A stretch of DNA of 64,000 nucleotides from Rhodospirillales bacterium (GTDB lineage: Bacteria; Pseudomonadota; Alphaproteobacteria; BOG-932; Roseiterribacteraceae): assembly GCA_003165335.1 (NCBI GenBank), contig PLTD01000127.1, forward strand, positions 1 through 64,000, read 5' to 3'. The translations under genes were made by a program, and so were the position numbers. The notes beneath the pieces are model-generated. The model had not been told where the DNA came from. It searched no databases and worked only from the letters and a program-made list of their open reading frames with translations. Shown in pieces: positions 3,616 to 19,943 of the stretch; within the stretch, counting starts at the first letter, position 1; every line of letters starts with the position of its first letter.

Positions 3616-4314
3616 ATGTCGCACGGCCCCCACCCGCTCGACACCTTTCCAATGAGAAAAATTGTAGTTTTCGGCAATGCTGGCGCCGGAAAATCCAGGC
3701 TCACGCGGCAACTGGCTGAGGCTACAGGGCGTCCCCTGTACTGCCTGGATATGCTTGAATTTCGGGCGGGCAGATATTGGCCGGACGAAGCAGGCGGCGG
3801 CAAGATTCCGGAGGACGAATATCGGAAGCTTCATGCCGAAATGATTGAACGGGATGAGTGGATCATAGAAGGCTTTGGCAGCGTCTCTTTAACTTGGCAA
3901 AGGCTCGCCGCAGCCGACACGCTTGTTTACATAGACCTGCCCCTAACGACGCACTTCAAGTGGGTTACCAGCCGATTTGCCTCGAGTCTCTTCAAGAATC
4001 CGCCGGGTTGGCCTGAGAATAGCCCTCTTTGGGGCAGCACATTGCACAGCTACAGGAATGTTTGGCGTTGTCACCGTTGGTTGACGCCGAAGTATAGGCA
4101 ACTTGTGGCCGAGGCCCGATCTTACAAACGAGTCCATCATCTGAAGTCAGGACGCGGCCTTTCTTCAAGCAATCAAACAGGAGCACCGACACGCCTAACG
4201 AAATGGGGACGATACATGCATCCAGCCGTCGTCATAACGCGAATGTCCGATTCCGCGCATCGCGGCCGCTTTCTGTGGCGCTCCTCTCTCCGCAGCGCGG
4301 ACATAGCTAGGTGA
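3616..4314 (+). CDS. P-loop adenylate kinase-like protein with a frameshifted C-terminus
   Basis: This 232-residue frame starts at the ATG at 3616, five bases after AAAGGAGA. It carries a Walker A motif FGNAGAGKS and the pattern of small adenylate-kinase/topology-modulation-like P-loop proteins (YCLDMLEFRAG, DEWIIEGFGS, ADTLVYIDLP). These probably phosphorylate a nucleotide or small molecule, substrate unknown. Family members usually end soon after the HHLKS motif. Here, one frame over, the bases read QDAAFLQAIKQEHRHA followed by a stop at 4196-4198, which is the expected ending. A single indel near 4146 has therefore replaced the native end with about 55 unrelated residues. The core fold should be intact; function is uncertain. 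Confidence 0.65.
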   Translation: MSHGPHPLDTFPMRKIVVFGNAGAGKSRLTRQLAEATGRPLYCLDMLEFRAGRYWPDEAGGGKIPEDEYRKLHAEMIERDEWIIEGFGSVSLTWQRLAAADTLVYIDLPLTTHFKWVTSRFASSLFKNPPGWPENSPLWGSTLHSYRNVWRCHRWLTPKYRQLVAEARSYKRVHHLKSGRGLSSSNQTGAPTRLTKWGRYMHPAVVITRMSDSAHRGRFLWRSSLRSADIAR

Positions 4315-4469
4315 AACCAATCGCCTGCTGTGCGCCTCCATTCCCATGAGTAAGAGGATCAGATTTCCCGTTTCCCCGATACTCCGGACTAAACGAGCGC
4401 TGTTGCGCGACGCGGACGCCGCATCACTGAGCGATTTTTGTGGTCTGATTCCGGTGATGACGATCGAGG

Positions 4470-4498
4470 TTGATAGTCTCGATTCTTTATAGTAGATA
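4470..4498 (+). promoter_or_regulatory. Candidate promoter of blaI-blaR1
   Basis: TTGATA (4470-4475) and TAGATA (4493-4498) are spaced by 17 bases and lie 26 bases ahead of the blaI start. The AT-rich stretch TATAGTAGATATA overlaps the -10 element and has partial dyad symmetry, a plausible place for BlaI to bind its own promoter. The operator assignment is inferred. Confidence 0.45.
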
Positions 4499-4523
4499 TA
4501 ACCACACTTGTAGGAGATTGGTG

Positions 4524-4910
4524 ATGGCGCAACCAAGGCTGAGCAAGCTGGAGCTTCAGATCATGGAGGCGCTCTGGACGCACGGGCCGTCATCGGTGCG
4601 CGAGGTGCAGGAGCGTTTTCCTGAAGAGACCAGGCCGGCGTACACGACTGTGCAGACGATGATCTATCGGCTGGAGGTCAAGAAGGTCGTGTGCCGGACG
4701 AGGAAGATTGGCAACGCCCATATCTTCGACGCCATGATCAGCAAGGCGTCCGCACAGCGTCGCCTGATCGACGATTTCCTCGGCATGTTCGGCGGCCGGG
4801 CGCAGCCGCTGATGGCCCATCTGATCGAGAGCGGGAAACTCACGCTCGATGATGTCCGGGAAGCCGAGAAACGGCTGCAGGAGCTGGCAGAAAAGGGGAA
4901 GCGGCCATGA
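4524..4910 (+). CDS. BlaI/MecI-family repressor
   Basis: The 128-residue protein has the BlaI winged-helix pattern from the first residues: LSKLELQIMEALWTHGPSSV, then the recognition region YTTVQTMIYRLEVKK, then a helical dimerisation tail. Family members dimerise on dyad operators and are inactivated by cleavage after a signal from their BlaR1 partner. The ATG at 4524 is seven bases after TAGGAG. The stop overlaps the BlaR1 start by four bases (ATGA), so the two are translationally coupled. No beta-lactamase or penicillin-binding protein gene follows, so the regulated target is unknown and may include only this operon. Confidence 0.9.
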   Translation: MAQPRLSKLELQIMEALWTHGPSSVREVQERFPEETRPAYTTVQTMIYRLEVKKVVCRTRKIGNAHIFDAMISKASAQRRLIDDFLGMFGGRAQPLMAHLIESGKLTLDDVREAEKRLQELAEKGKRP

Positions 4911-6931
4911 TCTTTGCGATCCTCGACCACCTCTGGCAATCGACGTTGGTTGTCGCGGTTGTTGCCCTCATGGCCGTTGTGTATCGCAGAAGTAGCGCCG
5001 GGATCCGCTACCGGCTCTGGCTGGCGGCTTCGGTCAAATTCCTCGTTCCGTTCGCGGCTCTCAATTCATTCGGCAAATGGCTGGCGCCCGCCTCGCCTCC
5101 GGCGTTCGACATGACGCCGGGAATCCTGCTGATCCAGCAGGCGGCGCAACCAGTTCTGGAGTTCCCTAGTTCGATGGAGCAAGCGGTAACAGCGTTCGAT
5201 CCGACGCTGATTCTGGAAACCGTGTGGGCGGTTGGCTTCCTCGCGGTCGCGACGGCGTGGCTTGTCAGATGGCTACGGGTTCGCGCGATCGTTCGATCCG
5301 CCCGGCAACTCGGCTGGACTGGACCAGTGCCGATCATGTCATCGGCCACGCTGATCGAACCGGTACTGGTCGGGATCCGGCGTGCAGTCCTGCTCGTCCC
5401 CGAACGTCTGCCGGACCATCTCACCCAGCCGCAGATCGAGGCCATTCTGGCGCACGAGTTCTGCCATCTGCGCCGCCGCGACAATCTTACTGCTACCATC
5501 CACATGCTGGTCGAGGCACTGTTCTGGTTCTACCCGCTAATCTGGTGGATCGGCGCCCGTATGATCGCGGAGCGCGAGCGCGCCTGCGACGAGGCCGTCG
5601 TAGGGGCCGGCCATGACCCCGAAGCCTATGCGCGCGGCATCCTCGAAACCTGCAGGCTCTATCTCCAATCGCCTCTCGCCTGCGCGGCCGGCGCATCCGG
5701 CTCGAATCTCAAGAAACGCCTGGAGATGATCATGACCGCTTACCCGTCACGGCCGCTCGGCCTGACTGCAAGGTCTTTCCTGGTTGGTGTGGGCGTCTGC
5801 GCCTTGGCGTCACCGGTTGCCGCCGGGCTGCTTGGGGCGCCAAGCGGCCCGATACGGGCTCCGCAATCAATTGCGACGTCCGCCGCAGCCGAAAGCGCCG
5901 CTGCGCCTGGGCCCTCGACGGCTGATGTTGAGCGGCTTCGGGAGGAGCAGCAAAAGCCACGACAGATAGTTCCGTTCGATCCGCCGAAGTTCGATCGATA
6001 TGTCGGATACTACGAGTTGGCGTCGAATTTTGTTTTCAAAGTCACAAGGGACGGCGACAAGTTCTTCGCTCAGCTCACCGGTCAGGGCGCTGTCGAATGG
6101 TATCCGGAGAGCGACTCTAAATTCTTTGCAACAGTGGTGGCCGCGCAGATCAGCTTCGTCACCGATGCGCAGGGGAATGCAACCGAGCTCGTCCTGCACC
6201 AGAACGGCCTGGAACAGCATGCTAAGCGGATCGAAGAGGCGACCGCGACAAATATCGAGTCAATGATTGCCCGGCGCATCGAGGGCAAGACGCCCAGCCC
6301 GGGCACCGAGGCATTCGTCCGCAAATGGCTCGCTTCGGTCGAAGCCGGGCACCCCAGCTATGATGAAATGACACCGGAACTGGCACAAGCGGCACGGACG
6401 CAATGGCCTAGAACTAGTGAGATCATAAAGACATTCGGAGCTCTCAAAGATGTCCGGTTCATTCGCGTCGATCCGCAGGGTATCGATATCTACGAGGTGG
6501 ATTTCGAGAACGGGAAGGGGGAAGTGTCAATTGCGCCGCTGACAGCGGACGGTAAGGTAGGCGGCTTATTTTTGAGGAATTTTGATACGCCTGCAACCGA
6601 CCCGGCCACCGCCCGGCGGATCGCGAACAATACACCTAGCCCCGGAACGGAAGCATCCATACGCCGATGGCTTGCCTCGGTTGAAGCCGGACAGCCGAAC
6701 TATGATGAGATGGTGCCGGAACTTGCTGAAGCGGCACGTGCGCAATGGCCAAAGATCAGTGAGAGGATAAAGCCATTCGGTGCTCTTAAAACCATCAAAT
6801 TTCTTCGCGTCAACCCGCAAGGCTTCGACGTCTATGAAGCTGATTTCGAAAACAACAAGATCGAAGTGACGATCGCGCCGCTTACGGCGGACGGTAAGGT
6901 CGCCACTCGGTTTTGGACGCTCTTGCCTTGA
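4907..6931 (+). CDS. BlaR1-like M56 membrane metalloprotease with a duplicated C-terminal domain
   Basis: The 674-residue protein begins with hydrophobic segments (SVKFLVPFAALNS), then the M56 zinc protease motif HEFCH at residues 183-187 in a cytoplasmic loop, followed by EALFWFYPLIWW and the RERACDEAVV signature. A further membrane helix lies near residue 300. In classical BlaR1 the C-terminal part is a penicillin-binding sensor. Here residues of about 350-440 look like a DUF3471-type lipocalin-like domain, followed by two near-identical repeats (462-560 and 576-674) starting TPSPGTEA. No SxxK beta-lactam sensor motif was noticed, so the ligand is probably not a beta-lactam. It is coupled to blaI by an ATGA overlap and is presumed to cleave BlaI. 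Confidence 0.85.
   Translation: MIFAILDHLWQSTLVVAVVALMAVVYRRSSAGIRYRLWLAASVKFLVPFAALNSFGKWLAPASPPAFDMTPGILLIQQAAQPVLEFPSSMEQAVTAFDPTLILETVWAVGFLAVATAWLVRWLRVRAIVRSARQLGWTGPVPIMSSATLIEPVLVGIRRAVLLVPERLPDHLTQPQIEAILAHEFCHLRRRDNLTATIHMLVEALFWFYPLIWWIGARMIAERERACDEAVVGAGHDPEAYARGILETCRLYLQSPLACAAGASGSNLKKRLEMIMTAYPSRPLGLTARSFLVGVGVCALASPVAAGLLGAPSGPIRAPQSIATSAAAESAAAPGPSTADVERLREEQQKPRQIVPFDPPKFDRYVGYYELASNFVFKVTRDGDKFFAQLTGQGAVEWYPESDSKFFATVVAAQISFVTDAQGNATELVLHQNGLEQHAKRIEEATATNIESMIARRIEGKTPSPGTEAFVRKWLASVEAGHPSYDEMTPELAQAARTQWPRTSEIIKTFGALKDVRFIRVDPQGIDIYEVDFENGKGEVSIAPLTADGKVGGLFLRNFDTPATDPATARRIANNTPSPGTEASIRRWLASVEAGQPNYDEMVPELAEAARAQWPKISERIKPFGALKTIKFLRVNPQGFDVYEADFENNKIEVTIAPLTADGKVATRFWTLLP
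6290..6931 (+). repeat. In-frame tandem duplication inside blaR1
   Basis: Bases 6290-6590 and 6632-6931 encode two copies of a roughly 100-residue unit. Shared landmarks are TPSPGTEA, WLASVEAG, YDEM, PELA, AARAQWP/AARTQWP, FGAL and IAPLTADGKV. The spacing is 342 bases. Identity is high at protein level but the DNA has drifted, so the duplication is not very recent. The unit resembles small secreted alpha/beta domains found next to catalytic domains and is presumably periplasmic. Confidence 0.8.
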
Positions 6932-6991
6932 ACATTGCTCGTCTCGGCGGGAGTCTACACGAACCGGGCAGTCGATGAATTTGCAATTATG

Positions 6992-7020
6992 AGGAAACCG
7001 AAATGAGGTGTTTCCTTTTT
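6992..7020 (+). terminator. Rho-independent terminator after blaR1
   Basis: AGGAAAC (6992-6998) pairs with GTTTCCT (7010-7016) across an 11-base loop, followed by TTTT to 7020. It lies 60 bases after the blaR1 stop in the sense direction. Confidence 0.6.
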
Positions 7021-7555
7021 GCCGATCCAGCAAGCTAGGCGTAGTGGCGAAAGGCATTGTGCGGGCGACCCGGCCGCGTGATTGGGGTGCAAGCCCTAGA
7101 TCGAGCGTCCGCTATCGAACCTGGACGCCCTTTCCTTCATCCAAGGTATTTGGAACGTACTTCGCTGCCCCTGATATCAACCGCTTGAGCGTTCCAAAAT
7201 TCTGCTGTGAATGTCTGCAGTCGCTAGGGCGAGATCCGAAAGCCGACTGGCAGAAATCCCCCCACCTCGGTCATTCGACGAATCTGAATTGAAGGGCCGG
7301 TACTGGCGCAAAGCTAGCCTCTGGCCGACCGCAGTTTTAATCCGAAGGATGCGCAAAACTGGCTGATTTATCCCAGTGCGAATGTAGATCATTACGAAAA
7401 TTGATTTCAGCGAATGGCTCTTGAGTTAGATTGTCTGTACCTGGGAGGGCACCGGCGCCGTTTTCGACCGCACGGATATGCCGGAATTCAAACAAGCCTA
7501 TGACGTCATTGTGAAATAATTTGAACGCATTTGGGCATATGAAACCGGACCACTC
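7021..7555. other. Gene-free stretch with a possible short coding remnant
   Basis: I find no credible complete gene. Bases 7430-7519 (+) read as a short frame ending in TDMPEFKQAYDVIVK and a stop, with another in-frame stop just upstream. It looks like the last 25-30 codons of a lost gene whose family I do not recognise. No clear promoter for the exported-protein operon at 7556 stands out. Confidence 0.3.
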
Positions 7556-9124
7556 TTGAAAACTATTCGCCCCTGCTTTGCCTTGGCGGCGTTGTTGTGT
7601 CGTCGGCTGTTTCTAGTGGCAATTGTTGCCATCTCCGGAACGATCTCGGTGCGGGCAGAGGAATCTGCGCAGTCGACCGTGCAGGAGCCCAGTGTTCCCA
7701 ATCTGCCGAAATGGACTCTGATTGCACGGACAGGCAAATCGGTTCCGCTCGGTACGGTGGTCCTCGGCGACGCCCCTTCGTTGAGGCGGGCGCCAACGGA
7801 AAACGCGGTCAGATTGGATGAATACGGCTATGCTGAAGATGAGTATTTCATCTCCGGAACGTCGAATCCTAATGCGGCAGGGGATCGCCCCAACGTGGGG
7901 GCAACCAGGCCGAATACGGCCTATACGACCCGCATAGTCGTTCGGCGTCCGGTCGACCCAAGTCGCTTCAGCGGAACTGTGCAACTTGAGCCCGTGGGCG
8001 ATCGAACCGAAGCCGTTACCAGTTGGACGTGGGCTTGGCCCTATTTCGTCTCGAATCATGACATCTGGGTTGGGATCACGGTGTCCAAGGACAGTGTCGA
8101 GACACTGCGGAGCAAGTTCGACCCCACGCGTTATGCGCCCCTCGAGATTTCGGACGAGGGGTTGAGCTGGGATATTCTCTCCCAGGTTGCCTGGCTTGTG
8201 CGCAGCCCCGACGGACCCCTCGGAAAGGAGGGATACCTCGATCAGGCGGCTGTCGTCCCCGGTCTTCTCAGGGTTTACGCTTCCGGCTGGTCATCAGCAG
8301 GGTGCATGCTGGCCGAGTTCCTGGACAAGGGCCGTGACCAACAGGCGCGCCGGCCCGACGGACGGCCTCTGATCGATGGCTATATTGTCGGTACCTGCCC
8401 GGTGAGCGGGCCTGTCGCCATACCGCATGACGCTGCCGTGATCCAGGTCATGAGCGAAAGCGAATATAGTGGCGCCCCGGTTTCGCGGGATGCCGTCATC
8501 GCGGCGCGCCGACCCGACGGCAACAAAGCCGGCGAACATCGCTATCGATGGTACGATGTCGCCGGCGTCGCCGATGCGGGATATCTGGACCAGCCCGCAC
8601 TCTCGCTTGCGGCCTATCAAATAGGTTGGAGTCAGGGCCCAGGGGCCGACTGCGCCAAGCCCATTGGTCGTGTATCGACCATGAACGACACTGCCCGGGC
8701 GCTGTTTCGCAATCTGGATGAGTGGGTCCGGATCGGACGGTATCCGCCGCACGGCGCGGTCTTTCAACTCGATGAAGACCACACGGTAAAGCGCGATCAG
8801 TACGGCAATGTTCTGGGCGGCCTGCGCCCCTACTGGGTCGATGTACCCTCATTTAGGTTAGTCCTCGCCGCCGTCGATACCGCCAGGCAGGATAAGTGGC
8901 CGGAGGCATCGGCGTTTTGCGCGCATATCGGATACGAAGAGGCATTTTCCGGGGATCAATTCTCCAAACTCTACAAGAATCACGACGATTATGTTGAGAA
9001 GGTCACAGATGCGGTAATATTGCTCGTAAACGGCAGATATATGCTGGCCGCAGATGCGGATGCGCTGCTTGCCGCCCTTCGTGGCAACAAGGGGCGGCAA
9101 GCAGTTCTGACGGGGGGAGGATGA
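7556..9124 (+). CDS. Exported alpha/beta hydrolase domain protein (Abhydrolase_10-like)
   Basis: This 522-residue protein has a signal peptide (LFLVAIVAISGTISVRA, cleavage near residue 35). Its layout is that of the large 'alpha/beta hydrolase domain-containing protein' family: YTTRIVVRRPVDPSRFSGTV early on, WDILSQVAWLV, a nucleophile-elbow-like segment VYASGWSSAGCM, and a late His region (VSTMNDTARALFRN, EDHTV). Such proteins are predicted esterases; the substrate is unknown. The start used is TTG at 7556, because no ATG or clear ribosome binding site precedes the signal peptide, so the true start may differ. It is first in a tight run: one base separates it from the next gene, which supports co-transcription with the DUF1592/DUF1552 genes. 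Confidence 0.7.
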   Translation: MKTIRPCFALAALLCRRLFLVAIVAISGTISVRAEESAQSTVQEPSVPNLPKWTLIARTGKSVPLGTVVLGDAPSLRRAPTENAVRLDEYGYAEDEYFISGTSNPNAAGDRPNVGATRPNTAYTTRIVVRRPVDPSRFSGTVQLEPVGDRTEAVTSWTWAWPYFVSNHDIWVGITVSKDSVETLRSKFDPTRYAPLEISDEGLSWDILSQVAWLVRSPDGPLGKEGYLDQAAVVPGLLRVYASGWSSAGCMLAEFLDKGRDQQARRPDGRPLIDGYIVGTCPVSGPVAIPHDAAVIQVMSESEYSGAPVSRDAVIAARRPDGNKAGEHRYRWYDVAGVADAGYLDQPALSLAAYQIGWSQGPGADCAKPIGRVSTMNDTARALFRNLDEWVRIGRYPPHGAVFQLDEDHTVKRDQYGNVLGGLRPYWVDVPSFRLVLAAVDTARQDKWPEASAFCAHIGYEEAFSGDQFSKLYKNHDDYVEKVTDAVILLVNGRYMLAADADALLAALRGNKGRQAVLTGGG

Positions 9125-9125
9125 A

Positions 9126-10376
9126 ATGTTTCGCTTCCAACGGGCGTTGCTGTCGAAACGATCTCGCCTGTATGGCGGGCTTCTGTTCATAGCCCTGGCA
9201 GGCCTGCTGGCGGCGTCGGTTCCGTTGCGCGCGCCCTCGGCCGAACCGGCAACGGCATCTGCCAAGCCGGCCGGCAAAACCAAAGGCTTCGTGTTTTCAT
9301 ATTTTTGGTACGCGATGGCCTATGGCGCCGACGATTGCCCGGATGGTCTTGCGATTTCGCTGGCCGGCGGGGTCGATCGGCCTCCACCCTATAACGCGGG
9401 GCGGAAGGCGGCACTGCAGGGGCGGGGTGGCATCCGCCCGGACGGCATCGACGACCAGTGCACCAACCCGGCGGCGTTCGAAGATCCGCCCATGCGCACC
9501 GGCAATGGTCATTCCGCATATGGTATGAATCTCGACGGCGCCGATGGGATGGGAACTCCCGCGCCGAACACCTGCGCGCATGAGAAATACACCGGGATGA
9601 AGGGCGAGCATGGGGTCGACAACCAGCTGTACCGCATACTCGGCTGTATCAACGCTTACCGGCCGGAATCCACCTTCCAAGGCAATGTCATCCGCGATTT
9701 CGTGGTCAGCGCCCGGCAGGATGGTCAGGTGACAACGGTCCTGGAAATCACAGGAATCGACGACGAGCAAAACGATCCTGATGTCGAAGTCGGCATCTAT
9801 TCCAGCCCGAACCCCACACTGTATGACGCCGACCGGAAGGGCGTGCCCTATTCAAGCCTGACGACGACGACCAACCCTCGCTGGCGCAACGTCACCCACG
9901 GCAAGATCGTGAACGGCGTGCTGACCACCGACCCGATCGACATTCGCTTGGACCATTATCCGGGCGAAGGCCTCAAGAATCATGCCGACATGTTCATCCG
10001 GGGTGCACGCATCCGCCTTGAGCTTCAGCCGGACGGCGGCGCCAATGGGATGCTGGCCGGCTACAGCGACGTCGAGACCGTCTATCATGCCGAATTCGGC
10101 ATGGCCTATTCCGTACTGCCCAAATCCTTCGGCTGGACGTGTCCGGCAGCTTACACCGCTCTGCACAAGCTGGCGGACGGCTACCCAGATCCGAAAACCG
10201 GGCAATGCACGGCCATCTCGACGGCATATCGCATCGAAGCGGTTCCGGCCTTCCTGATTCATCCGCAAAAGTCGCAAACCCCGGATGCGAAACTTTCGAA
10301 TGTCGGGCAACCGGCAATGCCGGTGCAGTTGGCCGAGGGGCCGGCGGCCGGTTGGCTGAGGAAGCTGGGGTGGTAA
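9126..10376 (+). CDS. Exported protein of unknown function linked to DUF1592/DUF1552 genes
   Basis: The 416-residue protein has an N-terminal signal or anchor (LYGGLLFIALAGLLAAS) after a basic start. The mature part contains FSYFWYAMAYGADDCPDG, a Gly/Asp-rich segment (MRTGNGHSAYGMNLDGADG) and several spaced cysteines (DDCPDG, DDQCTN, NTCAHE, LGCINA, WTCPAA, GQCTAI), compatible with disulfides in the periplasm. The segment ITGIDDEQNDPDVEVGIYSS suggests a beta-sandwich. No catalytic motif or CxxCH haem site is present. GGGGGGAGG precedes the ATG. The stop overlaps the next start by seven bases, so it is very probably produced with the DUF1592 lipoprotein. I recall similar unnamed proteins beside DUF1592/DUF1552 genes in other proteobacteria, but cannot name the family. 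Confidence 0.7.
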   Translation: MFRFQRALLSKRSRLYGGLLFIALAGLLAASVPLRAPSAEPATASAKPAGKTKGFVFSYFWYAMAYGADDCPDGLAISLAGGVDRPPPYNAGRKAALQGRGGIRPDGIDDQCTNPAAFEDPPMRTGNGHSAYGMNLDGADGMGTPAPNTCAHEKYTGMKGEHGVDNQLYRILGCINAYRPESTFQGNVIRDFVVSARQDGQVTTVLEITGIDDEQNDPDVEVGIYSSPNPTLYDADRKGVPYSSLTTTTNPRWRNVTHGKIVNGVLTTDPIDIRLDHYPGEGLKNHADMFIRGARIRLELQPDGGANGMLAGYSDVETVYHAEFGMAYSVLPKSFGWTCPAAYTALHKLADGYPDPKTGQCTAISTAYRIEAVPAFLIHPQKSQTPDAKLSNVGQPAMPVQLAEGPAAGWLRKLGW

Positions 10377-12061
10377 AACCCGGCCTCCGCGCATTCGGCC
10401 TGAGCGCCGCGATCGGCCTGATCGCGGTACTGGGGCTCGCGAGTTGCAGCCCGAAAGTCGATGCGCCGGCGACACAGGGCGGTCCGCTCGCCATGCGTCG
10501 GCTGACCGAAGCGCAATATCGCCAGACAATCGCCGATATTTTCGGTGTCGACATCAAAGTCGCCGGGCGTTTCGAACCGGACCTACGCAAGAGCGGGTTG
10601 TTGGCCGTCGGCGCCTCCGATGTTTCGGTGACCCGGGCCGGATTCGAAGATTACGATCTACTGGCGCACAGCATCGCCGCCCAGGTTGTCGATGAAAAAC
10701 ACCGGCAAACTCTCGTGCCCTGCGTGCCGGCATCAGCCAAAGCGCCGGACGCTGCCTGCGCCACCCGGTTTTTTCAAAAAGTCGGACGGCTGGTGCTGCG
10801 AAGGCCGCTGGACGCGCAAAAGGTGATGGCGATGGTCGAAATCGCCGATGCCGAGACCAAGACGTCTGGCAATTTCTATTCAGGTCTAGAATTTGTGCTG
10901 GCGGGTCTGCTCGAGGCGCCCGAGTTCCTGTTCCGCGTCGATGTGGCTGCGCCTGACACCGGTCATCCGGATAGTGTGAGGCTGGACGGCTTCTCGAAAG
11001 CCACCCGGCTGAGCTTCCTGCTTTGGGACACGACGCCCGACGACGCGTTGCTGGCGGCTGCGGAGAACGGAGAGCTGGACAACAGGGACGGGCTGACGCG
11101 GCAGGTCGATCGGATGCTGGGATCGCCGCGCCTCGACGCCGGGGTCCGGGCCTTCTTCTCCGACATGCTCGGTTTTGACGAGCTGCAGATGGTCGAGAAG
11201 GACCGGCTTCTTTACCCGAGATTCTCCAGGACGCTGGTCGCGGATGCCGAAGAACAGACTTTGCGGACGATCGCCGACCAGCTGATCGTCCAGCACGCCG
11301 ATTATCGCGACCTGTTCACGACCCGCCAAACCTTCATGACACGGACACTTGGGCTGGTCTATCGCGTGCCGGTCAGGGCTGAGCGCGGGTGGGAGCCGTT
11401 TGAGTTTCCAAAGGACGATCCGCGTGCGGGAATCCTGACGCACATCAGCTTTCTTGCGCTTCACGGTCCATCGGGCCGCAGTTCGCCGACATTGCGCGGT
11501 AAGGCGGTGCGTGAATTGCTGATGTGCCAGCATGTACCCGCCCCCCCGGGTAACGTGAGTTTCGCGTTGGTCGAGGACACGAAGAATGCTCAGTTGAAAA
11601 CGGTGCGGGACAGGTTGACGGCACACAGGGTCAATCCGGGCTGTGCCGGTTGTCACCGGATCATGGATCCGCTGGGCCTAGGTCTGGAGAATTTCGACGG
11701 GTTGGGACAATACCGCGCCGATGAGAACGGCACCCCAATCGACGCCAGCGGGGAGTTGGACGGGGCGCATTTCCAGAGTGCGGAAAGCTTGGGAAGGGCG
11801 ATGCACGACAATCCCGCGGTCGTGTCCTGCCTGGTCAATAGTGTCTACCGTTATGCAGCGGGCCGTCTGCCTCAGCCGGGCGAAAAGGAATTCCTCGCGT
11901 GGCTGCAACAGAATTTCGCCCAGGGCGGCTATCAGCTGCCGGACCTGCTCCGGCGCATCGCACTCAGCGACGCCTTCTACGCCATCTCGCCATCGATCGG
12001 CTCCAAATCGCCGAGGACGGCATCTGGCGCCTCCGATCCTCAAAGGGAGAGCAAATCATGA
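10370..12061 (+). CDS. DUF1592-type lipoprotein (DUF1587/1595/1592/1588/1585) with one CxxCH motif
   Basis: The GTG at 10370 overlaps the upstream stop by seven bases. The 563-residue product starts with a lipoprotein signal ending in the lipobox LASC (Cys26), so it should be membrane-anchored in the periplasm. The domain order is that of planctomycete-type cytochrome-like proteins: DUF1587 (RRLTEAQYRQTIADIFG, about 43-115), DUF1595 (LVLRRPLDAQKV, about 135-185), DUF1592 (TRLSFLLWDTTPDD, about 200-330), DUF1588 (HISFLALHGPSGRSSPTLRG, about 360-450) and DUF1585 at the end. A CAGCH at residues 425-429 followed by MDPLGLGLENFD is a c-type haem-like site, standard for DUF1588. The role is unknown; a redox function at the membrane is inferred. 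It is coupled to the DUF1552 gene by an ATGA overlap. Confidence 0.9.
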   Translation: MVKPGLRAFGLSAAIGLIAVLGLASCSPKVDAPATQGGPLAMRRLTEAQYRQTIADIFGVDIKVAGRFEPDLRKSGLLAVGASDVSVTRAGFEDYDLLAHSIAAQVVDEKHRQTLVPCVPASAKAPDAACATRFFQKVGRLVLRRPLDAQKVMAMVEIADAETKTSGNFYSGLEFVLAGLLEAPEFLFRVDVAAPDTGHPDSVRLDGFSKATRLSFLLWDTTPDDALLAAAENGELDNRDGLTRQVDRMLGSPRLDAGVRAFFSDMLGFDELQMVEKDRLLYPRFSRTLVADAEEQTLRTIADQLIVQHADYRDLFTTRQTFMTRTLGLVYRVPVRAERGWEPFEFPKDDPRAGILTHISFLALHGPSGRSSPTLRGKAVRELLMCQHVPAPPGNVSFALVEDTKNAQLKTVRDRLTAHRVNPGCAGCHRIMDPLGLGLENFDGLGQYRADENGTPIDASGELDGAHFQSAESLGRAMHDNPAVVSCLVNSVYRYAAGRLPQPGEKEFLAWLQQNFAQGGYQLPDLLRRIALSDAFYAISPSIGSKSPRTASGASDPQRESKS

Positions 12062-13398
12062 GCATGAGACCGAGCCGCAGAGGTGTGCTGCGCGGAATGC
12101 TGGGCGGCTCCGCCGTCACGGTCGCGCTGCCGTTTCTCGATTGCTTCCTGAACACCAACGGGACAGCGCTTGCCTCCGGCGGAGGCTTGCCGATCCGGTT
12201 CGGCACCTGGTTCTGGGGCTGCGGAATGAACCCGCAGCGCTGGGTGCCTACGAAAATGGGCCGCGATTACGACCTGCCGGCTGAACTCAAATATATCGAG
12301 CCGTTCAAGAATCAGATCAATGTGTTGAGCGGGTTCGACGTTAAACTCGACGGCAAGACCAACGCGCCGCACGTCACCGGAAATTTCGCGCTGCTGACGG
12401 GAACGACGCCGGCGTCGTTGGATAAACACGATGTGCCGACGGTCGATACGCTGATCGCCGACGTCGTCGGCCGCGATACGCGCTTCCGTTCGCTGGAAGT
12501 GACGGCGACCGGAAATCCGAAAGATACCTATAGCCGGCGCAATTCCAACAGCATCAACCCCGCAGAAGGGTCGCCGGTCGCATTCTACACGCGGATATTC
12601 GGGCCTGAATTCCAAGACCCGAACGCCACCGATTTTCGACCCGACCCGCGCGTGATGACCCGGCTGAGCGTATTGTCGCTGGTCAAGGACGATCGCGACC
12701 GGCTGGCGAAGCAGTTGGGTAGCAGTGACAAGGCGCGGCTCGACGAATATTTCACGTCCCTGCGTCAGGTCGAACAGCAGCTGCAGATGCAGCTGCAGAA
12801 ACCGCCGCCGGCGGAGGCCTGCAGGAAGCCGGAAATGCCGGCTGACATGGTTCCGGCCGGCTATCAGGTCGATCAGGTGATCACCAACCACAAGGTGATG
12901 TCAGAATTGCTGGCGATGGCGCTCGCCTGCAACCAGACCAAGGTCTTTAATATGGCCTTTTCCGACGCTCTTTCCGCTTTGCATAAATCGGGCACCACCG
13001 CCTACCACCATGGACTGACCCATACCGAATTGGCCGACCCCAAGCTGGGCTACCAGGTCGAGGCGGCTTGGTTCGTCGAGCGATCGATGGAGGCATGGGG
13101 CACATTCGTCGCAACGATGGCCGCCGTCCGCGAAGGTGAAGGGACCTTGCTGGACAACATGCTGGTCTTCGCCCATTCCGACAGTTCGGTCGCGCGCATG
13201 CATTCGATCCTCGGCGTACCGATGATGACCGCCGGCAAGGCAGGCGGGCGGATCAAGACCGGGCTGCATATCGATGGTGGCGGCGACCCGATCACACGCG
13301 TCGGGCTGACTCTTCAGCAGATCATGGGAGTCCCGGTCGAGCGCTGGGGCACGAACTCGATGGAGACGTCGGTGCCGGTCAGCGACATACTGGCATAG
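12058..13398 (+). CDS. Tat-exported DUF1552 protein
   Basis: The 446-residue protein starts at the ATG at 12058, 10-15 bases after AAAGGGAGA, overlapping the previous stop. The N-terminus RPSRRGVLRGMLGGSAVTVA is a twin-arginine signal, so it is exported folded. The body shows the DUF1552 pattern: FGTWFWGCGMNPQRWVP, INVLSGFD, HVTGNFALLTG, TVDTLIADVVG, LEVTATGNP, YHHGLTHTE and a C-terminal HSILGVPMMTAGKAGGRIKTG. DUF1552 is related to the sulfatase/alkaline-phosphatase-like DUF1501 group and is almost always encoded beside DUF1592-type genes. Its reaction is unknown. Tat export hints at a cofactor or metal inserted in the cytoplasm. Overlapping genes suggest the pair acts together. Confidence 0.9.
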   Translation: MSMRPSRRGVLRGMLGGSAVTVALPFLDCFLNTNGTALASGGGLPIRFGTWFWGCGMNPQRWVPTKMGRDYDLPAELKYIEPFKNQINVLSGFDVKLDGKTNAPHVTGNFALLTGTTPASLDKHDVPTVDTLIADVVGRDTRFRSLEVTATGNPKDTYSRRNSNSINPAEGSPVAFYTRIFGPEFQDPNATDFRPDPRVMTRLSVLSLVKDDRDRLAKQLGSSDKARLDEYFTSLRQVEQQLQMQLQKPPPAEACRKPEMPADMVPAGYQVDQVITNHKVMSELLAMALACNQTKVFNMAFSDALSALHKSGTTAYHHGLTHTELADPKLGYQVEAAWFVERSMEAWGTFVATMAAVREGEGTLLDNMLVFAHSDSSVARMHSILGVPMMTAGKAGGRIKTGLHIDGGGDPITRVGLTLQQIMGVPVERWGTNSMETSVPVSDILA

Positions 13399-13421
13399 GC
13401 GGTATTGGAGATAGCGCGGAT

Positions 13422-14222
13422 ATGAGCCGCCGTCGGTTTCTCCTGCGCGTTCTGCGCGTTTCGGGTGGCCTGATGGCTGTCATGGGACCGGCGCGGTTTG
13501 CCCGTGCGGCGGGCGGCGCAGCCGATAACGACGGCCGCGTCGCGACGGAATCGCTGCTGGTTGTCGGCGTGCAGGGGCTCGGGGGATACCTCGCAAAGCC
13601 GAAATCGGCGGGCAGGTATCCCGGGATTGTCATCATCCACGACAATCGCGGATTGGATGAGCACATTCAGAAATTTGCGCGCCGTCTTGCGGCGGAAGGG
13701 TATTTGGCGCTCGCGGTCGATTTTGGCGCCTACGCCGCCGCCACCACCGACGGCAGGACCGTGTCTGAGGCGATTGAGGCGCTGAAGCGGAGCGAGATTG
13801 TGGCGGGTTGCCGGGCGGCTGTCGCTGTGTTGGCGGCGCGGCCGGATTGCACGAAGAAGATCGGCGGCGCCGGGTTCGGCTGGGGCGGCCTCGCGCTCGG
13901 CTATCTCAGCCTGGCCGAGCCGACGCTCAGCGCCACCGTCACCTATTACGGGCGCCAGCCGCTCTACTTTCTGGTCGACGAATATAAGCTGATCAATGCC
14001 AAGATGATGTTCCACTACGCGTCGCGCGACACCAAGATCAACGAGGGCATCGTACCGTTCGGGATCGATCTGCGGGACGCGGGACGGAGCTTCGAGGTCT
14101 ATAGCTATCCGACCGTAAAACACGGCTTCGACGATGACACCGACAGTGACGCTTATGACAGGGCGGCGGCGGCCATCGCCTGGGGTAGGACGATTGAATT
14201 CTTCAAGAAGCAACTCGCTTGA
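13422..14222 (+). CDS. Exported dienelactone hydrolase-like protein lacking the usual nucleophile
   Basis: The 266-residue protein has a Tat-like N-terminus (MSRRRFLLRVLRVSGGLMAV) followed by an alanine-rich cleavage region. The fold pattern is dienelactone hydrolase: YPGIVIIHDNRGLDEHI, AAEGYLALAVDF, and a late VKHGFDDDTD with the catalytic His. In the nucleophile elbow, relatives read GFCWGG or GFCFGG; here it is GFGWGG, so the catalytic Cys is replaced by Gly. The protein may be inactive as a hydrolase or use different chemistry. It follows the DUF1552 gene by 23 bases on the same strand and probably belongs to the operon. Confidence 0.75.
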   Translation: MSRRRFLLRVLRVSGGLMAVMGPARFARAAGGAADNDGRVATESLLVVGVQGLGGYLAKPKSAGRYPGIVIIHDNRGLDEHIQKFARRLAAEGYLALAVDFGAYAAATTDGRTVSEAIEALKRSEIVAGCRAAVAVLAARPDCTKKIGGAGFGWGGLALGYLSLAEPTLSATVTYYGRQPLYFLVDEYKLINAKMMFHYASRDTKINEGIVPFGIDLRDAGRSFEVYSYPTVKHGFDDDTDSDAYDRAAAAIAWGRTIEFFKKQLA

Positions 14223-14262
14223 TGATGCGGAACAACACCGACTTTATCGGGAGGACGGCGGC

Positions 14263-15009
14263 ATGCGTGTGACCGCGGTTTTAAGCACCGTCTGGATTCT
14301 CATGACGGTCGCGAGCGGCAATAGCTACGGGCAGGGGGGCCAGGCCGCATTGCCCGCCGAAGCGACCGTGCAAAAATCCGCCACGGGACCGGTCTTTGCA
14401 GATGCGAAGGGATTAACGCTCTATACGTTCGATCGCGATGCGGCCGGCAAGTCGGCCTGCTCGGCTGTCTGCGCCCGCAATTGGCTACCCTTGCGCGTAC
14501 CCGATCTTGCCAACGACGCTGTCGGTGATTGGGCGACCGTACATCGCGACGATGGAAGCCGGCAATGGGCCTACCAAGGCAAACCGGTTTACACCTTTGC
14601 CGGCGATACCAAGGCGGGAGAGGTGACGGGGAACGGGACCGACGGCACTTGGCACACCGCCATGGTGCCGATGCCGCCCGTTCCGGCGACCCCCGGGGGG
14701 GTGAGCGCCCGAACTGTCGATATTGGGCGGGTGCTGGGCGATGCGAACGGTCTCACGCTCTATACCTATGACCGCGATACCGAACCGGGCAGGTCCGCTT
14801 GCGTCGATTCCTGCGCGGAAGCGTGGCCGCCGCTAATCGCCGACGGGGGTGCGGCATCCGCGCCCGATTGGACAATGATCGTCCGCGCCGACGGCTCGAA
14901 ACAATGGGCCTTTAAAGGCAAGCCGCTCTACAGATTCTCAGGCGACGAGAAGCCGGGTGAAACCGCCGGCGACGGCATCGGCACTATCTGGCACGCGCTG
15001 AAGATATGA
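14263..15009 (+). CDS. Secreted COG4315-type repeat protein (two copies)
   Basis: The 248-residue protein has a signal peptide (VTAVLSTVWILMTVASGNSYGQ) and two copies of a roughly 100-residue unit. The unit is that of the 'lipoprotein with Yx(FWY)xxD motif' family: LTLYTFDRD and LTLYTYDRD, each followed by a pair of cysteines (SACSAVCARNW, SACVDSCAEAW), WAYQGKPVYTF or WAFKGKPLYRF, and a final G-T-WH. The paired cysteines probably form a disulfide. The molecular function of the family is unknown; members often sit beside periplasmic redox or copper genes. It has no lipobox Cys. The ATG at 14263 is preceded by GGGAGGA. It is 40 bases after the DLH-like gene, so probably the same transcript. Confidence 0.8.
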   Translation: MRVTAVLSTVWILMTVASGNSYGQGGQAALPAEATVQKSATGPVFADAKGLTLYTFDRDAAGKSACSAVCARNWLPLRVPDLANDAVGDWATVHRDDGSRQWAYQGKPVYTFAGDTKAGEVTGNGTDGTWHTAMVPMPPVPATPGGVSARTVDIGRVLGDANGLTLYTYDRDTEPGRSACVDSCAEAWPPLIADGGAASAPDWTMIVRADGSKQWAFKGKPLYRFSGDEKPGETAGDGIGTIWHALKI

Positions 15010-15100
15010 CGACGCTGAATTGCTGCCGGGACGCCGCAGGTGCGCCCGCGATATTCGTCTCGTTTCAACCAGACGCAGTTCAATTTTATAGGAGGCTATC

Positions 15101-15613
15101 GTGAACTTTGTGGATCGGACTTGCCTAGCCGCACTGTCGATAGTCTTCGCCACGTGGAGCGTAGGTATCAGCGCCGCGGCTGACGAACAAGCGACGACCA
15201 AGCCTAATCTGCCGGCAAGCTTCGGGCTCATATTCGCGTCCGAACAGGTGCGGGACCTCGACCGTTCGCTGGCCTTCTATACGCAGGTTTTCGGGATGCG
15301 CGTGCTGAACGCATATAGCAGCAACGATTTTGAGGAGAGGCAACTCGTCTTTCCCGACACCGCCGTTGCCGGTGGTATCAATATTGTCCAGCGCGGTACC
15401 AAAACCGAACCCTTCCAGGGCGACAGGCCTGTCCACCTCGTCATACGGGTTCATGACATTCACGCGACTTGCGATCGCGTTGGGGCGGCAGGCGGAAAGG
15501 TTACGCGCGCTCCGGCCGATGCGGCGAATTCTGGGGTCTGGGTGGCGATGTTGGATGATCCCGATGGCCACCGGCTGGAGGTCGTTCAATACGAACAACG
15601 ACCGCATCACTAG
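15101..15613 (+). CDS. Exported VOC/glyoxalase-family protein
   Basis: The 170-residue protein starts at the GTG at 15101, five bases after AGGAGG. It opens with a signal peptide (CLAALSIVFATWSVGISAAA). The mature part is one vicinal-oxygen-chelate domain: FGLIFASEQVRDLDRSLAFYTQVFGMRV, NIVQRGTK, HLVIRVHDI, and the C-terminal strand VWVAMLDDPDGHRLEVVQYE with the metal-ligand Glu. VOC domains bind a divalent metal and act in glyoxalases, dioxygenases and resistance proteins; the substrate here is unknown. An exported VOC protein is uncommon and fits the exported nature of the genes before it. It is the last gene before the convergent AbiE module, 91 bases after the COG4315 gene. Confidence 0.8.
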   Translation: MNFVDRTCLAALSIVFATWSVGISAAADEQATTKPNLPASFGLIFASEQVRDLDRSLAFYTQVFGMRVLNAYSSNDFEERQLVFPDTAVAGGINIVQRGTKTEPFQGDRPVHLVIRVHDIHATCDRVGAAGGKVTRAPADAANSGVWVAMLDDPDGHRLEVVQYEQRPHH

Positions 15614-15727: not shown

Positions 15728-16641
15728 TTATTTCAAAACCCGGTCAAGATCTTTGACCACGGACTGGTATTTTGCGGGTTGTTCTGCGCGCAGCCGCTCC
15801 AAGTTGATCAGCTTCCATCGAACTGCCGGAAGATCGGCGATATTGTCCAAGCCAAGTGCTGACCAATCCGGCTGCAACTCATGAAACGACATGAGGAAGG
15901 CGCGTACGCGATCGTCGGCTAGCCGGTGCTGGATTTCGGCAACCAACTGCCGCCGCGCCTCCAGGAGATCGTCGAGGGAAGCCGGTTCGATGGTCATTCC
16001 AACGAACTCTTGTTCGAAGGTTTGGGCAATATCCTTGAACGCAGGTCTGAGCACTTCGTGCGCCGGCCGTCCATGACTGATGATATAAACGAGGAATGCC
16101 CGGAACAGCGCCGCATCTATCCCCTCGTTCGCAAAAAGGTAACGCACGTCGAAAAGGTCCCGCGGATGCTGCCGATCGAGCGCCGCGACGAGCTTGCCGG
16201 CATAGAGGTCAGCAAATGAGACGAGTTGCGTTTCAGCAAAGCCGAACGTGTCTTCGACCGTTGCGCTGACACTGCGGATCTCCGGAGGGAAAACGACGCC
16301 ACGCAAAACGGGTGTTACTTCGATCTTGATCTGCGTGAATCCTTGGCGAACGACGATTCTGGTGCCGTCGTGGCTAGCGTTCAGATTGACCTGGATTCGA
16401 CGTGGCCCCCGGCGATGGCTGCACCAATGCGTGCGAGCCCCGCCCTGATCGCAGCGAGGGACATTTCTCGGTCTGCCACTGGAAGATAAACCAGGTCGAT
16501 ATCGACGGAGAGGCGAGGAAGGTCGCGGATGAATAGATTGATCGCGGTCCCGCCCTTAAGTGCAAAGCAGGTCTCGGCCGCGACGTAGGGAAGGACCCGG
16601 ACAAGCAACGCGACCTGCGCGCGAAACTTATTAGCCGGCAT
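15728..16641 (-). pseudogene. AbiEii-type nucleotidyltransferase toxin, frameshifted
   Basis: The gene starts at the ATG at 16641, inside the end of the AbiEi gene (11-base overlap), as is typical for AbiE. The first 86 codons hold the nucleotidyltransferase core: ETCFALKGGTAINLFIRD and RLSVDIDLVYLP with the Asp pair. The frame then stops at about 16396. One frame over the protein continues without a break as VNLNASHDGTRIVV, then IEVTPVLRGVVFPP, VSFADLYAGKLVAALDRQ, HPRDLFDVRYL and a helical tail to 15728. A single missing G near 16396-16402 explains both parts. AbiEii transfers nucleotides to tRNA in studied systems and is held in check by AbiEi. As sequenced the toxin is inactive. Confidence 0.8.
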
Positions 16642-17485
16642 GATCGCCGCCATCGTCCTCGAACATTTCGCCCGGCAAAGTGATCTGATAGCGCGCGTCG
16701 AGGCGTCCGCCCGGCACCAGCTGGCGCTTGCCCTTCCCGAGGTCGAGCGCAACAGTATCCAGGTGTTTGCGCCAGGTATGGTGATGGCGATCAGCATACC
16801 AGAGGAATACGCGCCTGACTTTCAAGCTTTTGCATTCTTGCAAAAGCTTGCCGAGCAGTCTTGGCCGCAGATTGGTGAGGCCCTGCATAGCCATGTCGAC
16901 TTGGTGGAATGTCTCGTGCTTCGGGAGTTCATCGATCATCTCCATGATCGCGCGCTCCGGCGATGCCACCCTCAGCGGCCAATCCCAGGGCGCATCCGGC
17001 TCCATGTCCGACGTTGCGTCCTCGGTTCGGCCAGACACAAGATCGTAGCGCCGCCCTTCGACGCCGGTCTCTGAGCCGCCAAAAAGCCTCGTTGAGTGCA
17101 GGTCAAAGCGAGCGGTTGCCGATAATCGAACGAGCCATGCTGGCACTCCCCCACCATATATGTGAATAACCGCTGGACCCGCGGCGCTCACATAGTGGGC
17201 ATACCCGGCGAGTTCGAGCGCCGTCGCTCCTCCAACATGGACAGGGTGCCCCATGATCCGTTGCAGCGACAGGGCGACGACATCCCAGCGAAGGGGTGCG
17301 CCAGGGTGAGGCAGCGGCCGGCGGTAAACGCGGGGCGCCACCCGTTGCAGCCATCCAGATGTCGCATAGTCGCGGATCGATGAGCGTGATAGGCCCTGCG
17401 CCTGCAACCAAGTGCTATCCGCTATAAAGCCGGCCGGCAGCTGGCTTAGGACATGGTTCAGCCTTTGCATCCTTTGTGCGCTCAT
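16631..17485 (-). CDS. AbiEi-family antitoxin (type IV TA)
   Basis: The 284-residue protein matches AbiEi antitoxins. It has an N-terminal winged-helix region (LSQLPAGFIADSTWLQAQGLS, RSSIRDYATSGWLQRVAPRV), then the C-terminal antitoxin domain with HVGGATALELAGYAHYV, LPGE-type turns and VASPERAIMEMIDE. In characterised AbiE systems this protein represses the operon through inverted repeats upstream and neutralises the AbiEii nucleotidyltransferase, protecting against phage. The start at 17485 lies 22 bases from a dyad at 17507-17527. It appears intact while its partner is broken, which is the viable direction of decay. Confidence 0.85.
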   Translation of the reverse strand: MSAQRMQRLNHVLSQLPAGFIADSTWLQAQGLSRSSIRDYATSGWLQRVAPRVYRRPLPHPGAPLRWDVVALSLQRIMGHPVHVGGATALELAGYAHYVSAAGPAVIHIYGGGVPAWLVRLSATARFDLHSTRLFGGSETGVEGRRYDLVSGRTEDATSDMEPDAPWDWPLRVASPERAIMEMIDELPKHETFHQVDMAMQGLTNLRPRLLGKLLQECKSLKVRRVFLWYADRHHHTWRKHLDTVALDLGKGKRQLVPGGRLDARYQITLPGEMFEDDGGDHAG

Positions 17486-17994: not shown

Positions 17995-18207
17995 CTAACA
18001 GGACCTCACTCATCGGGTACAGGGAGCCGGCTGAGTTGAGGGGTTCCCGTCCGGTTCAGGGGTGTCCGGTTGCGAAATCCCGCCCGGCCCAACCTACCTT
18101 TATTCCGCCTCTTCTATGCTATTGTGGTACCTACGAAATTCGGCTCTTGCAGACGTTTCTGCGCGCACCAATGTCGATTCCATAAGCACAGCGGCGAAGG
18201 TCCGAAT

Positions 18208-18459
18208 ATGCCCGAGACAGACAGATTCCTGCGTATGCATTCCGTGCTGGAGCGCGTCGGCTTCAGCCGAACCACGCTCTACCGGAAAATGCAGGAAGGA
18301 ACGTTTCCGCGTCAGGTGCAGATCAGCGACTATTGTCGCGGCTGGCGCGAGTTCGCGATTAACCGCTGGATGGCGGATCCCGCATCCTACAGGGAACGCG
18401 ATGGCGCGGCCGACCGAGGGGACCCGCCTGACAATGTCGCGCTGCGCCGCGCCGATTGA
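18208..18459 (+). CDS. AlpA-family regulator
   Basis: The 83-residue protein has the AlpA/MerR-like helix-turn-helix pattern: RFLRMHSVLERVGFSRTTLYRKM, then EGTFPRQVQIS and WREFAINRWMADP. AlpA proteins from P4-like prophages and islands activate integrase or excision genes and can serve as recombination directionality factors. The ATG at 18208 is chosen because the domain starts there; the frame is open further upstream without homology. Its last 73 bases overlap the 3' end of the integrase gene on the other strand. Its position beside the integrase supports a role in excision control. Confidence 0.8.
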   Translation: MPETDRFLRMHSVLERVGFSRTTLYRKMQEGTFPRQVQISDYCRGWREFAINRWMADPASYRERDGAADRGDPPDNVALRRAD

Positions 18460-19721
18460 TCCGTCGGTCCAGGGGATGAACCATCTTTCCCCGCGATAAT
18501 CGCGCCTAAGCGGCTTCCCCAAGTGTCCAGAGCGAGCTTCTTTTCAACGTCGTATCCATAACGATCATAGACGGCAGTCACATTGGGTTCGGCGTGATTG
18601 AGGATTTTTCCGACTACAAGGCGGTAGATCCCCATGCTGGTCATATGACTGGCGGCCGTACGGCGCAGATCATGAGGTGTCGCGTCGGTCAATCCCAGCG
18701 TGGCGAGATTCTTCCGAAAGGCATGGTCAACCGCCGGTCCGGTAATCGGCGATTTTTCGTGGGGCGAAGGGAACAGCCAACGAGACGGTTGAACGTCGGC
18801 TGGCAATCCGGCCCTGGTGCGCCGTTTGTTGATGCCGTCGACGCGGTCTCGTTCGGCTTGCCGAATTTCTTTCAACAGCGAAATTGCAAGCGGCGACAAG
18901 GGAACCCGGTGCGGCATCCTGTTTTTTGCTTTGGCGGCCGGAATTGTCCAAACATTCCCTTCCGTGACATCGAATTCCGCCCATTCGGCGGCGATGACTT
19001 CGCCTTTCCGCTGGGCGGTCGCGAGCTGTAACTTAAGGGCGAGTGCTACCTGCCGTGACATTTTCAGGTCCGGGCTTTCTAACCCCTTCCAAAGCTCGCA
19101 GACTTCCGCGGCGCTCAGAACACGGTCCCGGCGATTTTCCTCCGAGGGAGCTCCAACATTGGCGCAAGGGTTTGCGGACACGATGTCGCGCGATACCGCC
19201 CAAGAGAACATCTTGCGAATTGCAGCTAATGTCCGGTTAGCCTGGATCGGGGCGCCACGGCTAACAATGCCGTCCAACAGGGCAACCACGTCGCGGCGGA
19301 CGATCGCCTTGGCCTTCTTGCGGCCCCAAACCGGCACTACATCTTTTTTTAAGATGCGCTCGTCCTCGCCAGCACTGCGCTTGCGCGGTTGCGCCCATAG
19401 CCGCAGATAGTCGTCAACCAAATCTGAAACGCTCTCCGCAATCCGCTCTTGCCGGTTTTTTTCGACATTCGCAGCGCCGGGGTCGGTGCCGTCCCGCAGA
19501 GCCTTCTTGGCGTTCCCCAAGGCGATGTTTGCGTCAGCCAGGCTCATCGCGGGATAAGACCCCAGTGTCATCCGGCGCGCTCTGTCCTCGAAGCGATACA
19601 TCCACACCCACGACTTGATGCCACGCGGCGTCACACGCATCCCGAACCCGTCACCGTCCCACACCTCATACCGTTTCGTCTTGCAACGAAGAGCGGCAAT
19701 CGACTTGTCAGTGAGCTTCAT
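18387..19721 (-). CDS. P4-type tyrosine integrase
   Basis: The 444-residue protein starts at the ATG at 19721 with the typical DUF4102 arm-binding domain (MKLTDKSIAALRCKTKRYEV, GFGMRVTPRGIKSWVWMYRF). It continues with a SAM-like core-binding domain and the catalytic domain: Arg in ATAQRKGE, HDLRR, the later His in LNHAEPN, and Tyr in YDRYGY. All catalytic residues look present, so it may be active. It would integrate the element at the 3' end of a tRNA gene, and a tRNA-Thr 3' fragment lies 174 bases upstream of its start. The C-terminus has a low-complexity Ser/Pro/Arg tail that runs into the antisense of the AlpA gene; the native end may have been lost. Confidence 0.9.
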   Translation of the reverse strand: MKLTDKSIAALRCKTKRYEVWDGDGFGMRVTPRGIKSWVWMYRFEDRARRMTLGSYPAMSLADANIALGNAKKALRDGTDPGAANVEKNRQERIAESVSDLVDDYLRLWAQPRKRSAGEDERILKKDVVPVWGRKKAKAIVRRDVVALLDGIVSRGAPIQANRTLAAIRKMFSWAVSRDIVSANPCANVGAPSEENRRDRVLSAAEVCELWKGLESPDLKMSRQVALALKLQLATAQRKGEVIAAEWAEFDVTEGNVWTIPAAKAKNRMPHRVPLSPLAISLLKEIRQAERDRVDGINKRRTRAGLPADVQPSRWLFPSPHEKSPITGPAVDHAFRKNLATLGLTDATPHDLRRTAASHMTSMGIYRLVVGKILNHAEPNVTAVYDRYGYDVEKKLALDTWGSRLGAIIAGKDGSSPGPTDQSARRSATLSGGSPRSAAPSRSL

Positions 19722-19894
19722 GGGAGGTCCTCTGTCCTTGCTACCCCAAGGGTAATTTGGGGTGGCAAAATCTGATTCACTGTATGAAACTACCTGAAAC
19801 AGGGTAGCATAGGAAGTGTTCAAAAACAGCAGGAAGTCTGGAATTCTTCTTGTTTCAGACGGTGCCTCTAGGTATCAGAAAATCTCAATATTGT

Positions 19895-19943
19895 CCGATT
19901 TGTAATCGGTAGGTCTGCGGTTCAAATCCGCGTTTCGGCACCA
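19895..19943 (+). other. 3' half of a tRNA-Thr(TGT) gene: island attachment site
   Basis: The bases read as a tRNA 3' half: anticodon arm CCGA-TTTGTAA-TCGG with anticodon TGT, variable loop, T arm with TTCAAAT, acceptor strand TTTCGGC, discriminator A and CCA. The matching 5' acceptor GCCGAAA and the D arm are missing upstream, where the sequence becomes AT-rich and unrelated. P4-type integrases use exactly this part of a tRNA gene and duplicate it on integration. With the integrase to the left, the island should extend leftward and the complete tRNA should lie beyond the window start. Confidence 0.8.

Follow-up and report, generated by a model that had tools for sequence, protein, structure and literature searches.

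Adjacent PSCyt3 (PSD/DUF1592-DUF1588) and DUF1552 genes occur in many copies in Planctomycetes and Verrucomicrobia, with a function stated as unknown; PSCyt3 genes beside genes of unknown identity have been reported from Verrucomicrobia (PMC5615132). The window, the stretch of 64,000 nucleotides of Rhodospirillales DNA analysed here, contains such a pair within a run of genes for exported proteins. Which of these genes belong with the pair, and what might they do together?

The gene run and its surroundings

The initial annotation had described seven same-strand genes (7556-15613), separated by overlaps or short gaps and all encoding exported products. All seven open reading frames were found at that place and on that strand, and a Pfam search agreed with the domains assigned (B matched no Pfam or NCBIfam family). 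Export signals were seen by eye in every product: putative Sec signals on A, B, F and G, a putative lipobox (LGLASC) on C, and twin-arginine signals on D and E. The run and the features to its right are as follows.

A, 7556..9124, + strand: secreted alpha/beta hydrolase (Abhydrolase_10, Pfam E 2.5e-83) with a GWSSAG nucleophile elbow
B, 9126..10376, + strand: exported protein (416 aa) whose family has no name yet; core partner of compact DUF1592/DUF1552 pairs
C, 10370..12061, + strand: lipoprotein with Pfam domains PSD3, PSD5, PSD4 (DUF1592), PSCyt3 and PSD2, and a single putative haem-c site (CAGCH)
D, 12058..13398, + strand: Tat-exported DUF1552/HXXSHH protein (Pfam E 1e-52)
E, 13422..14222, + strand: Tat-type dienelactone-hydrolase-family protein (Pfam DLH E 2.6e-37)
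F, 14263..15009, + strand: COG4315/Lipoprotein_15 (PF03640) repeat protein (Pfam E 1.1e-59), core partner
G, 15101..15613, + strand: secreted VOC/glyoxalase-fold protein (Pfam Glyoxalase E 1.5e-17), peripheral
AbiEii/AbiEi, 15728..17485, - strand: type IV toxin-antitoxin genes, located between the operon and the integrase
AlpA, 18070..18459, + strand: AlpA-type regulator
Integrase, 18387..19823, - strand: P4-type tyrosine integrase (Arm-DNA-bind_3 and Phage_integrase)
tRNA 3' half, 19896..19943, + strand: probably tRNA-Thr(TGT) as read by eye; its end is GGCACCA, and it likely marks the island border

A single base separates the stop of A from the start of B, the GTG start codon of C (10370) lies within B, and C and D overlap by ATGA. 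The remaining gaps are 23 (D-E), 40 (E-F) and 91 bases (F-G). Sigma-70-like promoter matches numbered two, versus 3.1 expected from shuffles. Since the A-to-F junctions are tight and promoter matches stay at the level of shuffles, the seven genes are likely to be carried on one transcript.

The location on a mobile island that had also been proposed gains support on the right side, where integrase, AlpA, AbiE and the probable tRNA-Thr 3' fragment are found and synteny is lost leftward; the left end of such an island lies beyond the contig. In three related genomes (G002, G003 and G004) synteny to the window was lost left of the tRNA border, and in the congener G002 it continued to the right. 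The window starts at contig base 1, and no repeat of at least 13 bases that could be a left att copy was found leftward. On this border evidence, the operon is probably island cargo. Mobility nevertheless does not define the system, since at least eight further cassettes of the kind described below are present in the genus. G002 has a tRNA 3' remnant like this one at the position matched by synteny (L180:1142-1191), which suggests repeated island insertions at this site. Elsewhere in the window (4907-6931) lies a gene for a BlaR1-type M56 peptidase with DUF3471, containing a 290-base internal duplication (6269-6558 and 6611-6900).

A recurring four-gene cassette

GTDB genomes were scanned with the 416-residue B protein, which yielded 77 loci in Sphingobium, Sphingomonas, Solimonas, Hydrocarboniphaga, Steroidobacter, Peristeroidobacter and many freshwater MAGs. 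A set was counted as complete when B, C, D and F lay on one strand within 3.5 kb. Such sets held 65 of the 76 DUF1552 genes in these B-selected loci, and many of the others were at loci cut by contig ends. The order was BCDF in 44 complete sets, CDFB in 18 and CDBF in three. The source genome itself has nine genes each for DUF1552 and DUF1592, every one of them in a B-C-D set, with B directly upstream of the pair in all nine cases and F next in seven. In one of these loci (L096:3133-6990) three B paralogues stand in tandem ahead of C-D-F; tandem B genes were also seen in L066 and L076. B was carried by two genomes of the same genus and was absent from the two sister-genus genomes examined.

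The association thus extends beyond the DUF1592/DUF1552 pair, as had been suspected, although not to all the partners first suggested: B and F recur with the pair, both in the 77 loci and in the source genome, whereas A and E recur nowhere. The alpha/beta hydrolase A was found in 0 of 77 loci and in none of the eight other cassettes of the source genome, and the same two sets contained no homologue of E. G recurred once, on a Novosphingobium plasmid, where it immediately follows D. Judged by gene neighbourhood, A, E and G are outer genes, outside the core cassette, and A and E are specific to the copy in this window. In certain proteobacteria B-C-D-F, a cassette with no earlier description, is present in as many as 15 or more copies per genome; in the open-access literature no paper was found that mentions DUF1592 together with DUF1552, nor one that describes the cassette.

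Evenly drawn genome samples (398 by phylum, 386 by class) were also searched from the DUF1552 side. DUF1552 was rare, being present in nine phylum-sample and seven class-sample genomes, the source genome included. With cassette-derived profiles, D scores fell into two groups with nothing between them, one at 543-730 bits (compact) and the other at 33-156 bits (classical). B was nearby in every sampled locus of the compact group and in none of the classical one. The B profile, applied to the best few candidates of each of the 398 phylum genomes, found two genomes, both with a compact D. As B occurs with compact D only in these samples, it marks a subtype of the PSCyt3/DUF1552 system and not the whole family. 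We read B-C-D-F as a version of that system in its own right, with four components.

The four genes also share their history. Pairwise distances of B, C, D and F correlated over the 65 cassettes (r 0.83-0.93), a level that 0 of 2000 permutations reached. Among the 15 cassettes of one MAG r was 0.57-0.84 (reached by 0 or 1 of 2000 permutations), and among the 11 cassettes of another genome 0.65-0.91 (reached by none). Species phylogeny cannot be the source of a correlation within one genome, so the cassettes duplicate or travel as blocks. One MAG titled Candidatus Marinimicrobia (L019-L021, L033-L035, L038, L039, L042 and L043) has at least 11 cassettes that closely resemble those of Rhodospirillaceae-titled MAGs, and its title may be wrong.

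L017 and L084 carry a fusion of B with F (COG4315 repeats), and an N-terminal CHRD domain is fused to B in L012 and L016. Small exported CHRD-like open reading frames lie beside the cassette in about 15 loci. Homology between B and F as a cause of their fusion was ruled out by profile comparison.

Candidate function

The predicted structure of B (pLDDT 78, core above 90) gave no significant match to the PDB in a Foldseek search; C71, C174, D165, N166, R170, D351 and D355 are invariant in B. Each of 54 C proteins out of 54 has exactly one CxxCH, which in the window is the CAGCH at residues 424-428. A comparison of the C and D sequences with PDB sequences found nothing. The twin-arginine pair of D is invariant (51 of 51 relatives). 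H107, H324 and D368 are likewise invariant and D132, H320 and H384 nearly so, even when classical DUF1552 proteins are compared. The D model (pLDDT 87) had its best match, to sulfatases and LTA-synthase-type enzymes, at E 3.9e-5 and probability 1.0, but with a TM-score of about 0.38, and may thus have a remote alkaline-phosphatase/sulfatase-like fold. H107, in an HxTGxxxLxTG context, appears to occupy the position of the sulfatase Cys/Ser nucleophile, as aligned by eye with the sulfatase signature. In E, GFGWGG stands where a GxCxGG elbow is usual; with the catalytic Cys replaced by Gly, E is probably not a dienelactone hydrolase.

TonB receptor genes were present in 31 of the 77 loci, at 30/Mb versus 9/Mb for the source genome overall, which is the sole baseline. 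Enrichment within the source genome was rejected, only two of its nine cassettes having a receptor within about 6 kb. On plasmid pMSHV of Sphingobium herbicidovorans, cytochrome c' and cytochrome b561 genes follow D. In the source genome, a Mo/2Fe-2S enzyme follows F on contig C214 (L092); on contig C140 (L093) the gene directly after D encodes a KshA-type Rieske oxygenase. In L050, L055 and L085, CHRD, NrfD-like, DMSO-reductase-family, FeS and flavoprotein genes run in one direction into B-C-D; this run includes a TonB receptor in L050 and L055, and F follows B-C-D in L050 and L085. The DMSO-reductase-family alpha, NrfD-like, FeS and flavocytochrome-like genes of these three loci (about 4000-15000) look like a complete respiratory oxidoreductase operon. 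Because the redox neighbours vary by locus, none is a fixed partner of the cassette. The source genome encodes ten KshA_C Rieske oxygenases (contigs C233, C95, C156, C140, C24, C216, C41, C89 and C53), which suggests a degrader of steroids or similar alicyclic compounds. Steroid degradation as the specific role of the cassette is weak, given a single KshA-type adjacency although the genome has ten such genes.

The cytochromes, Mo enzymes, flavoproteins and Rieske oxygenase among the neighbours make a redox or degradative function plausible. The conserved cassette itself is a solid result, whereas its reading as a redox enzyme is one that we infer from the haem motif and the neighbours. Our best explanation, held tentatively and at somewhat less than an even chance, is that B-C-D-F forms a haem-c-coupled module in the periplasm, where hydrophobic or alicyclic compounds imported through TonB receptors are oxidised or undergo some other processing. 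In this reading, D would hold the active site, its conserved His and Asp residues forming a metal site, and electrons would pass from C to cytochromes. B, with its beta-rich core and probable disulphide, might bind the substrate or dock C and D, while F and the CHRD domains would be accessory. Paralogous cassettes in one genome may serve different substrates, and in the window the cassette would share its transcription unit with the copy-specific hydrolases A and E, beside an integrase-bearing island border. A bolder version, which we consider doubtful, makes B-C-D-F a periplasmic metalloenzyme of a new kind, with an alkaline-phosphatase-type fold, His replacing the nucleophile, turned into a haem-coupled redox catalyst that has B as obligate subunit and at least 15 copies per genome acting on different substrates.

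The resemblance of the D model to hydrolases rather than oxidoreductases is a point against the oxidoreductase reading. D could instead be a sulfatase- or phosphatase-like hydrolase that works in the periplasm and belongs to the alkaline-phosphatase superfamily, with C, B and F as binding or assembly subunits and a structural or sensory haem. This would agree with the fold match described above and with the sulfatase genes that often lie alongside PSCyt genes in freshwater Verrucomicrobia (PMC5615132). We regard it as unlikely, given TM-scores of only about 0.38 and the CxxCH kept by every C. The His at the apparent Cys/Ser nucleophile position, placed by eye, also argues against it.

Less likely still is a surface or periplasmic complex for extracellular electron transfer, or a structural one, rather than a catabolic enzyme. 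A lipoprotein with a haem motif, a repeat protein and secreted CHRD partners and fusions would suit such a complex; a single haem motif per cassette would not, neither a porin nor a multihaem cytochrome recurs, and catabolic enzymes and TonB receptors are among the neighbours. We give an equally low probability to the original proposal that the seven genes form one dedicated transferable pathway that cannot do without A, E and G. The absence of A and E from every other cassette and the single recurrence of G speak against it, even though A and B are one base apart, E and F follow closely and the integrase-bearing border is near.

The compact cassette in cultured Sphingobium, Novosphingobium, Solimonas, Hydrocarboniphaga and Steroidobacter offers a handle for tests. 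DUF1592 and DUF1552, two protein families that have long gone unexplained, become easier to test for function, and the new family B and two orphan families, COG4315 and CHRD, are drawn into the same puzzle.

Comparison with known systems

The surroundings of the operon resemble P4-type tRNA-integrating islands in their integrase, AlpA, tRNA 3' fragment beside the integrase and break of synteny at that point. They differ in that the left end lies outside the contig, so that extent and cargo are putative. D may share the fold of the alkaline phosphatase/sulfatase superfamily, to judge by its remote, low-TM match, and may depart from it in the conserved His that seems to stand where the nucleophile would be. 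F, as other COG4315/Lipoprotein_15 secreted repeat proteins do, matches PF03640 and has CxxxC...W repeats (two units in the window), but is distinguished from them as a fixed DUF1552 partner that is sometimes fused to B.

The closest relatives of the cassette are the classical PSCyt3-DUF1552 pairs, with which it shares the Pfam domains of C and D, the adjacency of the two genes and the many copies per genome. As in those pairs, a PSD4/PSCyt3 protein adjoins a DUF1552 protein, and the CxxCH lies in the PSCyt3 domain. In contrast to them, the compact C has about 560 aa, versus 830 to over 2,200 codons, stop to stop, for the classical C frames sampled; D forms a separate group, at about 20-30% identity to classical DUF1552; and the cassette has the obligate extra gene B and usually F.
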